The notes beneath the pieces are model-generated. The model had not been told where the DNA came from, made no database searches, and saw only the letters and a program-made list of their open reading frames with translations. Both the position numbers and the translations under genes were made by a program. A stretch of 37,761 bases of DNA from an uncultured Prevotellaceae bacterium. GTDB taxonomy: Bacteria; Bacteroidota; Bacteroidia; Bacteroidales; Bacteroidaceae. The DNA is taken from positions 1 to 37,761 of the forward strand of contig CAMHIM010000008.1 in the NCBI GenBank assembly GCA_946185225.1, in the 5' to 3' direction. Below, in pieces: positions 12,179 to 37,761 of this stretch; position 1 is the first letter of the stretch, and each line of letters opens with the position of its first letter.

Positions 12179-12323
12179 AAAAGCCGACTTTCAAGGACAC
12201 AAAAGCCGACTTTCAAGGACGCAAAAGCCGACTTTCAAGGGCGCAAAAGCCGACTTTCAAGGGCGCAAAAGCCGACTTTCAAGGGCGCAAAAGCCGACTT
12301 TCAAGGGCGCAATGTCGGCTTTT
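12179..12323. repeat. 22-bp tandem array A: 6 direct units AAAAGCCGACTTTCAAGGRCRC plus terminal inverted copy GTCGGCTTTT
   Basis: Units start at 12179, 12201, 12223, 12245, 12267 and 12289; inverted core at 12314-12323 abuts the stop codon of the minus-strand gene. Confidence 0.97.
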
Positions 12324-35186: not shown

Positions 35187-35660
35187 ATGAAGCAAAAACT
35201 TTACTTAGTACTGCTATTGCTGAGTCTGACACTCTCAGGCAATGCAGAAGAGAAGTGGTGCCTCGTCGTGGAGAACGCCAGTGGTGTAAAAACAGCCATC
35301 GCCATTGATCAGGAGCCAGTCATCACGCCGTCGGCTGATGGCTATTCCCTGGCCTACGGAGCGGTTACCACACAATTCACGTGGAGCGAGTCGGTAACGA
35401 TGACGATTGAGCAGACAGAGCCAACGCCGACAGGCATCAAAGAAGTGAAAGGCACATCCTTCCAACTGGCTCCCGGCGAGGTTGCCATGAAGAACGCCAC
35501 CCCTGGTTCCATGGCTCAGATTGTCACCATCGGCGGACGCCAGGTGAAAGCCGTCCGCGTTGCTGACGACGGCACAGTAATCCTCTCTACAGCAGGTCTG
35601 CCCGCTGGCATTTACATCATCAAAACCAACAAGTCATCCTTTAAATTTATCAAGAAATGA
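35187..35660 (+). CDS. Short secreted protein with a T9SS type A sorting-domain-like C-terminus
   Basis: MKQKLYLVLLLLSLTLSGNAEEKWC signal; C-terminal MAQIVTIGGRQVKAVRVADDGTVILSTAGLPAGIYIIKTNKSSFKFIKK resembles Por_Secre_tail. Confidence 0.75.
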   Translation: MKQKLYLVLLLLSLTLSGNAEEKWCLVVENASGVKTAIAIDQEPVITPSADGYSLAYGAVTTQFTWSESVTMTIEQTEPTPTGIKEVKGTSFQLAPGEVAMKNATPGSMAQIVTIGGRQVKAVRVADDGTVILSTAGLPAGIYIIKTNKSSFKFIKK

Positions 35661-36364
35661 AAAAGCTTATACTTTCCTGCATAGCCATCATGGCTGCTTT
35701 CGTTTGTGCATCAACCGTCAACGCACAAGGTTTCAGAGTTCACACCAAGCAGATGGGTTCCACCGGTTGGGTGAGACTCTTCCCCCGCACCAGTGTGAAC
35801 TTTGTGGACACCTACGACAATAACACGTCTGAGCCCACCATCACGGGAACCTGGAAAATCAAGGAACTGAAGAGCACTGCCCAAGCCATGTCTGACGCAA
35901 ACTACGGCATGGTGACCTTCGGTGATGCATATCCTTCCTTCAATGCTGAGGACAAGATTACCTTTGCTGCAGACGGCACCTTCACACCTAACTTCAAGTC
36001 GAACCTGAAGAATTTCTTCAAGGGGGCAGGAACGTACGTTGCTGCCGACGAGTACGACTTCCATCCCGATGCGATGTCCGGCAGCGTTACAACAGTGAAG
36101 ATGGTCAAGCTCAAGGGGGTCAACCGTAACTTTGACGCTACCAGCACCAGCGAGGACGACGAGGCCTACATCGGCTACCGCATGGTAGAGGACGAAGACG
36201 CCGACGAGGCAGGGGTCTACTTCATGGAAGTTTACTTGCTGGACTACAAGTCAACCTCTTTCGCACCGGAATTCGAAAGTTATTATTTATATAGTGACGA
36301 GAAGCCCACGGCAGCCATGTCAGGCATGGCCATCCTGTTCACCATGACCAAGGAATTGGAGTAA
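35657..36364 (+). CDS. Secreted lipocalin-like hypothetical protein
   Basis: Signal MKKLILSCIAIMAAFVCASTVNAQ; TITGTWKIKELKST opening strand; ATGA overlap with the previous gene. Confidence 0.7.
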   Translation: MKKLILSCIAIMAAFVCASTVNAQGFRVHTKQMGSTGWVRLFPRTSVNFVDTYDNNTSEPTITGTWKIKELKSTAQAMSDANYGMVTFGDAYPSFNAEDKITFAADGTFTPNFKSNLKNFFKGAGTYVAADEYDFHPDAMSGSVTTVKMVKLKGVNRNFDATSTSEDDEAYIGYRMVEDEDADEAGVYFMEVYLLDYKSTSFAPEFESYYLYSDEKPTAAMSGMAILFTMTKELE

Positions 36365-36388
36365 CAAAAGAAAGTCGGCTTTTGCGGG
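36362..36388. repeat. Solo copy D of the AAAG(T/C)CG(G/A)CTTT element, starting in the stop codon
   Basis: TAACAAAAGAAAGTCGGCTTTTGCGGG; shares TAACAAAAGAAAG with the left end of array B. Confidence 0.8.
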
Positions 36389-36401
36389 TTGCTACGCATG
36401 G

Positions 36402-36443
36402 ATGAGCGGTTGCTACATCCAGTTCACCATGAGTCAGAAGTAA
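36402..36443 (+). pseudogene. Remnant resembling the C-terminal tail of the upstream lipocalin-like gene (other frame)
   Basis: MSGCYIQFTMSQK* compared with upstream MSGMAILFTMTKELE*; DNA CATCCAGTTCACCATGA vs CATCCTGTTCACCATGA. Confidence 0.5.
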
Positions 36444-36470
36444 GCCCTTATCATTGCTTTACTTAATCTG

Positions 36471-36508
36471 CTGCGCTTCCGTTCAACACGGAAGCGCAGT
36501 TTTTTTTT
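36471..36508 (+). terminator. Intrinsic terminator closing the peptidase/SusCD operon
   Basis: CTGCGCTTCCG / TTCAACA / CGGAAGCGCAG + T-tract. Confidence 0.93.
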
Positions 36509-36514
36509 CATTTC

Positions 36515-36546
36515 CTTGGTCGTTTCAGAGGAAACGACTATCTTTG
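36515..36546 (+). promoter_or_regulatory. mntA-hepT promoter with inverted-repeat operator candidate in the spacer
   Basis: CTTG (-33-like) 36515-36518, IR GTCGTTTC-AGAG-GAAACGAC 36519-36538, TATCTTTG (-7) 36539-36546. Confidence 0.6.
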
Positions 36547-36571
36547 CGGCATACATAAGGATTTGTAATAT

Positions 36572-36865
36572 ATGCTAGCACTCCAGGATTGTATCAAAAC
36601 ATTGTCTGCTTTCAAGCAAAAGTTTGGCAGACAATATGGCATCACTAAACTGGGTATCTATGGGTCCGTAGCCCGACAAGAGAACACCGAGGAGAGTGAT
36701 ATAGACATTATTGTGGAGTTAAACAAACCTACGCTGTCTTTGATGTATGAACTCCATGAACGGTTGAAATCACTTTTCAACTGCGAAGTGGACCTTGTTC
36801 GTTACCGTAGTAGCCTTCGTCCTCTCTTCAAATCAAACATTCTTAACGATGTAGTCTATGTATAA
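36572..36865 (+). CDS. mntA: MntA-family minimal nucleotidyltransferase antitoxin
   Basis: GSVARQENTEESDIDIIVEL matches GSX10DXD; overlaps the hepT-like gene. Confidence 0.9.
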   Translation: MLALQDCIKTLSAFKQKFGRQYGITKLGIYGSVARQENTEESDIDIIVELNKPTLSLMYELHERLKSLFNCEVDLVRYRSSLRPLFKSNILNDVVYV

Positions 36866-37235
36866 CAAAAGTGCAGAAACACTAGACAGGTTACAAGAAA
36901 TCCTTGAATCCATCGAACTAATACAAGAATGGAGCAAAGGGATGACTAAACTTCACGACTTTATGGTTAGTCCCCATCGCGTTATGGCTTTCAACGCATG
37001 CGTCATGAGATTACAAGTCATAGGTGAACTCGTAGGTAAACTGCTAAAAGAAGAAAGAGAGTCTCTATCAGAATATCCACACATTCCATGGCAGGCTATA
37101 TATGGCATGCGCAATATTATCTCTCATGAATACGCCAACATTGATGAAGAAGTCGTCATCTCTGTGATAAACGATGACTTGCAGCCTCTTAAAACTGCAA
37201 CCAAAGAACTCATATCTAAATACTCTAATAAGTAA
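36858..37235 (+). CDS. hepT: HepT-like (DUF86) ribonuclease toxin
   Basis: MRNIISHEYANID contains RX4HXY; small alpha-helical DUF86 protein paired with mntA. Confidence 0.9.
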   Translation: MYNKSAETLDRLQEILESIELIQEWSKGMTKLHDFMVSPHRVMAFNACVMRLQVIGELVGKLLKEERESLSEYPHIPWQAIYGMRNIISHEYANIDEEVVISVINDDLQPLKTATKELISKYSNK

Positions 37236-37240
37236 CAAAA

Positions 37241-37319
37241 GAAAGCCGACTTTGAAGCATTGAAAAGCCGACTTTGAGGCATTGAAAAGCCGACTTTGCG
37301 GACCGCAAAGTCGGCTTTT
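37241..37319. repeat. 22-bp tandem array B: 3 direct units plus terminal inverted unit forming a near-perfect palindrome
   Basis: (G/A)AAAGCCGAC cores at 37241, 37263 and 37285; palindrome AAAAGCCGACTTTGCGG-A-CCGCAAAGTCGGCTTTT 37285-37319. Confidence 0.95.
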
Positions 37320-37328
37320 GTTATGGTC

Positions 37329-37761
37329 TTATAGCCGGATGAGGGTGGAGCCGGAGGGGAAGGAGCCGTCTGTCTGCACGGCATAGATGCCGGCGGGCAG
37401 CGACGGGAGCTCGATGGTATAAACGGCAGACGACGGCCGTTGGGCGTCGGACGACGGGCAGCGGACATCGGGTGACGGGAGGCTGCGGTCAAGGACCTGA
37501 CGGCCCGACAGCGAGAAGAGGCGGACGCGCAGGGGCTGGCCAAGGGGTGCCGGGGCGGTCAGCGTCAGCCGGCGACCGGCACAGCGGACCTCGAGCGGCG
37601 TGTGACGTGAGGAGATGTCGCGGATGCCGTCAAGGCCCAGCAGGTAGAGAAGACCACGATAGGCGTCTATCTCACCGTAGCCCTCGTAGTTGTTGGGACA
37701 AGGCAGCGTCGTGTCGTAGGGACGGCTGGTCTGACGTATCACCTCCATGGCCTCCTGCGGA
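37329..37761 (-). CDS. C-terminal part of a probable secreted S8 peptidase with a T9SS sorting-domain-like tail (5' truncated by window)
   Basis: ...EAMEVIRQTSRPYDTTLPCPNNYEGYGEIDAYRGLLYLLGLDGI resembles subtilase C-terminal helices; PLRVRLFSLSGRQVLDRSL...LPSLPAGIYAVQTDGSFPSGSTLIRL resembles a T9SS CTD. Catalytic residues lie outside the window. Confidence 0.65.
   Translation of the reverse strand, partial: PQEAMEVIRQTSRPYDTTLPCPNNYEGYGEIDAYRGLLYLLGLDGIRDISSRHTPLEVRCAGRRLTLTAPAPLGQPLRVRLFSLSGRQVLDRSLPSPDVRCPSSDAQRPSSAVYTIELPSLPAGIYAVQTDGSFPSGSTLIRL

Follow-up and report, generated by a model that had tools for sequence, protein, structure and literature searches.

With moderate confidence, we read array B, a run of four repeat units between two convergent genes of an uncultured Prevotellaceae bacterium, as a member of an intergenic repeat family that is specific to this species and dispersed through its genome, and in which units would be copied between loci and hairpins kept as two-way 3'-end structures. 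The family unit is 22 bp long and consists of a 13-bp near-palindromic core and a loosely conserved 9-bp linker. Across the bacterial family to which this genome belongs, the 22-bp ruler is conserved, and the core sequence is not.

Structure and surroundings of array B

Array B occupies positions 37241-37319 of the window (the whole 37,761-nt stretch of DNA that was analysed). It has four 13-bp cores, three direct and the last inverted, whose starts are spaced 22 bp from one to the next. Its parts and neighbours, together with two further repeat sites in the window, are as follows.

12179-12323, + strand: array A, six direct units and one inverted unit (one mismatch) on a 22-bp lattice
About 36360-36383, no strand assigned: lone inverted unit after the ORF at 35657-36364, containing the AGTAACAAAAGAAAG of array B's left edge
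36858-37235, + strand: HepT-like gene, upstream of array B (PF01934, E = 1.9e-20)
37233-37240, + strand: left edge TAACAAAA, including the hepT stop codon TAA (37233-37235)
37241-37253, + strand: unit 1 core GAAAGCCGACTTT, one mismatch to the consensus, at the first base
37254-37262, + strand: linker 1 GAAGCATTG, which recurs in an array on contig C62 (L052)
37263-37275, + strand: unit 2 core AAAAGCCGACTTT, 22 bp past unit 1
37276-37284, + strand: linker 2 GAGGCATTG, which recurs in an array on contig C6 (L034)
37285-37297, + strand: unit 3 core AAAAGCCGACTTT, also the 5' arm of the hairpin
37285-37319, no strand assigned: perfect inverted repeat (35-nt hairpin), with four A at its start and four T at its end
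37307-37319, - strand: unit 4, the inverted core, on the 22-bp lattice despite the flip
37329-37748, - strand: convergent ORF without a Pfam match, its stop codon (37329-37331) 9 bp beyond array B

An earlier, sequence-only reading had proposed that arrays A and B share their 22-bp spacing and core and differ in their linkers. Both the coordinates and Tandem Repeats Finder, which finds a period of 22 in each array, bear this out; array A has the linker CAAGGRCRC, unlike the GAAGCATTG and GAGGCATTG of array B. Within the window, CCGACTTTG occurs five times (0.38 expected) and AAAGTCGGCTTTT, allowing at most two mismatches, 13 times (0.55 expected). These counts far exceed expectation, indicating that the core in array B is not a product of chance.

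The 17-bp perfect palindrome said to close the array is also present. Its arms (37285-37301 and 37303-37319) are 17 bp each, 100% complementary and separated by a 1-bp spacer. The RNA fold of 37233-37323 has a z-score of -4.0, and none of 200 shuffled sequences was equally stable. The outer edges had been described as inverted copies of each other, which holds only when a 4-bp AAAG insertion on the left, already marked in that description, is ignored.

By Pfam, the gene pair upstream of array B encodes an MNT-like nucleotidyltransferase and a HepT-like protein. The hepT ORF ends in the TAA at the left edge, as had been claimed, and the 93-bp convergent gap from this stop codon to that of the next gene is filled entirely by array B. 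The array had no match in phage records.

In array A, the final base falls within the stop codon of a convergent hydrolase gene. Its unit is resembled by 22-bp repeats, GGGACAAAAACCCAACTTTCAA, that accompany the rep gene on Rep_3 plasmids of Bacteroides and Phocaeicola (L219:31662-32060). Near array B, AGTAACAAAAGAAAG is identical at 36360 and 37231, most plausibly because one edge was duplicated locally. The MNT-HepT pair is bracketed (36360-37253) by unit copies with a common AGTAACAAAAGAAAG, and part of the upstream ORF's 3' end occurs twice, at 36331 and 36416. The bracketing looks like either a local duplication or a cassette insertion.

Copies throughout the genome

The genome assembly is 67% complete. 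It contains 133 copies of the core AAAAGCCGACTTT at no more than one mismatch, against a single copy for the reversed-pattern control, and at least 98 sites among the matches listed are perfect. In the regions fetched, the copies fall into approximately 33 clusters, or approximately 31 arrays once apparent contig halves are merged. These arrays hold the exact 22-bp lattice in both orientations, flipped units included, and the variant cores GCCGGTTTT and GCCGACATT sit at the same lattice positions.

The linkers, 9 bp long, conform loosely to a consensus in which position 1 is G or C and position 4 is mostly G. The earlier suggestion that linkers change between arrays is correct for A and B, but the change is not free: six linkers, including both of array B's, are common to different loci (0.5 expected; maximum of five in 1000 column shuffles). 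Linkers differ at 3.7 of 9 positions within loci and at 5.1 of 9 between loci. Being semi-conserved, and recurring both within and between arrays, these 9-bp linkers are not the unique spacers of a CRISPR array.

The edges of the arrays are less regular. We compared the 8 bp flanking each of 40 outward array edges and found no fixed edge tag there, GTAG and CGTC included; the only strong bias is at position -1, towards C. The sequence-only reading had taken TAACAAAAG as the defining terminus of the element, but TAAC abuts the core at only 3 of these 40 edges genome-wide. With most of the edges lacking TAAC, we rejected TAACAAAAG as a universal terminus. The idea that the hepT stop codon belongs to a terminal repeat is likewise unsupported; its overlap with the array edge is local, and most arrays have no TAACAAAAG edge. 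What stands of the proposed element family is the common 22-bp core architecture, the changing linkers and the two-way hairpin, but not a boundary of inverted TAACAAAAG ends. Nor did the arrays examined show fixed terminal inverted repeats, as would be expected of a MITE; their edges vary, and no bounded unit was seen. A comparison with Rfam gave no family matches.

Several contigs of the genome end inside arrays (L033, L050/L057, L059/L061), and two pairs of contig ends resemble halves of one array. The repeats probably break the assembly at these points.

Arrays and hairpins at gene 3' ends

None of the arrays in this genome lies inside a gene, as predicted by a simple codon-score finder. 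Their locations are convergent in 10 cases and divergent in 2, and the median distance from an array is 31 bp to a 3' end vs 143 bp to a 5' end. Among testable arrays, all 14 with a hairpin lie within 40 bp of a gene 3' end, compared to 4 of 14 without one (Fisher p = 1.5e-4, using a 40-bp cut-off picked after the distances had been seen).

Each inverted junction gives a 35-nt hairpin of the form A4-stem-U4. Fourteen such hairpins, whose loops differ, have a mean energy of -21.4 kcal/mol on one strand and -21.3 kcal/mol on the other. The hairpin of array B has an energy of approximately -24 kcal/mol on either strand, and its U-tract of four pairs with the A-tract. Because the U-tract is so short and pairs in this way, array B missed the criterion of our terminator scan, which found no other terminator-like site in the convergent gap. 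Given the short U-tract and the absence of a call, "two-way 3'-end RNA structure" is a safer description than "terminator", and the likely local role of array B is that of a shared 3'-end hairpin. Bidirectional intrinsic terminators similarly place an A-tract, stem and U-tract hairpin between convergent genes; however, the four U of array B are all pairable, and repeated direct units on a lattice form no part of a terminator. Approximately 100 bp past the ORF at 35657-36364 and beyond the lone unit, at 36470-36500, there is an intrinsic terminator of the canonical type with a long T run. The genome thus also has ordinary terminators, which counts against the hairpin reading.

The linkers common to different loci, and their greater likeness within loci than between them, suggest how the arrays may have arisen. 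Whole units would be copied between loci, and tandem duplication in 22-bp steps would then multiply them locally, some being flipped without leaving the register. Where an inverted unit creates the A4-stem-U4 hairpin, the array would be kept at gene 3' ends and may serve the RNA of both strands, either by weakly terminating transcription in the two directions or as an exonuclease barrier.

Distribution of the core among relatives

The exact double core occurs in this genome alone among 301 genomes of its family. With one mismatch allowed, the double core did not occur in any of 118 further genomes from the phylum, and a looser form did not occur in 147 other genomes of the order. With two mismatches allowed, matches appear in 3 of 398 further genomes from the genus, which have AAAAGCCGTCTTT or a close variant at equal spacing. 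One genome (G206) carries a looser AAA-N7-TTT lattice with peaks at 22, 44 and 66, and another (G374) has tandem clusters like it. In G206, G374 and G568, some 22-bp lattices adjoin a TTGATNATCAA-like palindrome (L104, L107, L108).

The hepT loci of relatives in 11 genomes are without any core, so we rejected a link between the array and hepT. Orthologues of array A's hydrolase in five relatives have no array after the stop codon. The other flank is not conserved in those five, and we therefore describe this as a lineage-specific gain rather than a clean empty site; the comparison turned up no empty site conserved on both sides.

A 22-bp ruler across the bacterial family

The nearest relatives by alaS (80-84% identity) did not show the AAA-N7-TTT lattice, and for this reason we turned to a test free of any motif, which counts, for each lag, the places where a 14-mer is repeated at that distance with no more than one mismatch, simple repeats being excluded. 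In 1.92 Mb of same-family DNA, this gave 61 clusters at lag 22, the dominant lag among those that are not multiples of 3. Other lags from 14 to 60 (multiples of three and 44 left out) had a mean of 2.6 clusters and a maximum of 9, and lag 23 had none. Lag 22 was found in 19 of 45 sampled genomes, while every other such lag tested was found in 6 at most. One genome alone (G010) had 19 lag-22 clusters in 180 kb. The outgroup samples, which were small, gave two lag-22 clusters in 272 kb from other families of the phylum and none in 150 kb of E. coli.

The cores are unlike one another between genomes, as seen in GGCAGCGGCCGCTGCC (G246), GGAGGTGCCGCCTCC (G332), GAGCGGCGTGCTC (G561) and GGAGCGTGCTCC (G010). 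A few lag-22 matches are 7-bp or 11-bp repeats; we dropped five clear 11-bp cases, leaving 56 clusters for tests of placement and inversion. Only 2 of these 56 are inside predicted genes, while 87% of the DNA is coding. An inverted copy is nearby for 19 of the 56, compared to 1 of 54 controls. Palindromic cores are weakly enriched in other species (7/56 at p ≤ 0.05 vs 1/107 controls, an earlier statistic having been null), and since the enrichment is weak, we do not claim a palindromic core as a general rule there. Some arrays of G010 have a period of 11 bp, which is half of 22 (L202:187, L202:5179, L202:5341, L203:473).

Alternative explanations

The arrays could instead be neutral minisatellites, products of functionless replication slippage. 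The 3' bias would then reflect only tolerance, and the common 22-bp period would stem from structural preferences of the slippage process or of supercoiled DNA. In favour of this, the arrays of the family sample are mostly intergenic, their cores vary by species, and linkers are closer within a locus than between loci. It would, however, predict a spread of unit lengths, and lag 23 yielded none. Slippage alone also leaves unexplained the occurrence of one core at approximately 31 loci, the linkers common to these loci, the in-register flips and the confinement of hairpins to 3' ends, and we consider it a rather unlikely account of the arrays. Among known systems, BrickBuilt is a MITE of Porphyromonas gingivalis that includes a tandem minisatellite of 23-nt units (PMC4596501). 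Both are intergenic Bacteroidales repeats, but BrickBuilt is a longer element with a leader and a tail, whereas the present elements consist of nothing but the array, with 22-bp units and neither leader nor tail in evidence.

The arrays could also be iteron-like binding lattices. Each core would then be bound by a dimeric protein, of the winged-helix initiator type or another, and neighbouring units would be separated by two helical turns. Direct copies might bind monomers and an inverted pair a dimer, and the chromosomal copies might titrate plasmid initiators. In a blastn search, array A matched a single plasmid, pBACSA01 of Phocaeicola salanitronis (E = 3e-10). The match is to a tandem array of 22-bp units immediately beyond the 3' end of the Rep_3 gene, where 16 of the first 18 positions of the unit agree (AAAACCCAACTTTCAAGGGACA against AAAAGCCGACTTTCAAGGRCRC); the E-value is inflated by repetition, though, and an A/T-rich 18-mer with two mismatches is weak evidence. 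Comparable arrays are found at rep genes of 33 plasmids in all, nearly all from Bacteroides or Phocaeicola, and the Rep_3 loci of G452 and G561 also have 22-bp repeats. Array B has no plasmid match, and densities of lag-22 clusters such as that in G010 (19 in 180 kb) are high for decoys. Furthermore, Rep_3 (PF01051) was not found in this 67% complete genome (G000). Of 15 other related genomes, the majority of them array-bearing, 13 likewise gave no Rep_3 gene. The Rep_3 iterons of pBACSA01 and related Bacteroides plasmids have 22-bp direct repeats in common with our arrays, but are located at one locus beside the rep gene, whereas the present arrays are dispersed and a rep gene was not found. 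An initiator of the genome's own was rejected, as PF01051 is absent from the 67% of the genome assembled. We keep the likeness to pBACSA01 as a lead only, and think the iteron-like lattice quite unlikely. REP and BIME elements, mobilised by a RAYT (Y1/HUH) transposase, resemble the arrays most in copy number, placement and alternating orientation. Published REPs and BIMEs are high-copy extragenic near-palindromes that are clustered, species-specific and enriched at convergent or 3' sites (PMC2817692, PMC3733652), and the 133 copies here are high-copy and extragenic as well, with inverted units present in many arrays. Nevertheless, the segments between REPs vary substantially in length in Stenotrophomonas, while the lattice here keeps a rigid 22 bp through flips; direct tandem units predominate, and the edges have no fixed tag, GTAG and CGTC included. 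The RAYT domain PF01797 had no match in this 67% complete genome or in G561 and G636, which are near-complete and array-bearing. We accordingly rejected a RAYT/Y1 transposase as the driver, and regard mobilised REP/BIME elements as a very unlikely explanation.

Implications of the 22-bp ruler

Our preferred reading remains that of a dispersed, REP/BIME-like family with units copied between loci and hairpins kept at gene 3' ends. A broader and more tentative possibility is that the arrays belong to an undescribed chromosomal repeat class defined by its 22-bp ruler, in which an enzyme or nucleoprotein lattice of fast-changing specificity, perhaps a relative of iteron-type initiators, may build arrays and spread them to the ends of genes. 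We found no description of 22-bp arrays in this bacterial group in the literature. Should the ruler prove real throughout the family, it would speak for a mechanism that measures 22 bp, or two helical turns, whatever the sequence. It would also explain the assembly breaks at arrays, and would mean that gene 3' ends are shaped in this way throughout a major group of gut bacteria.
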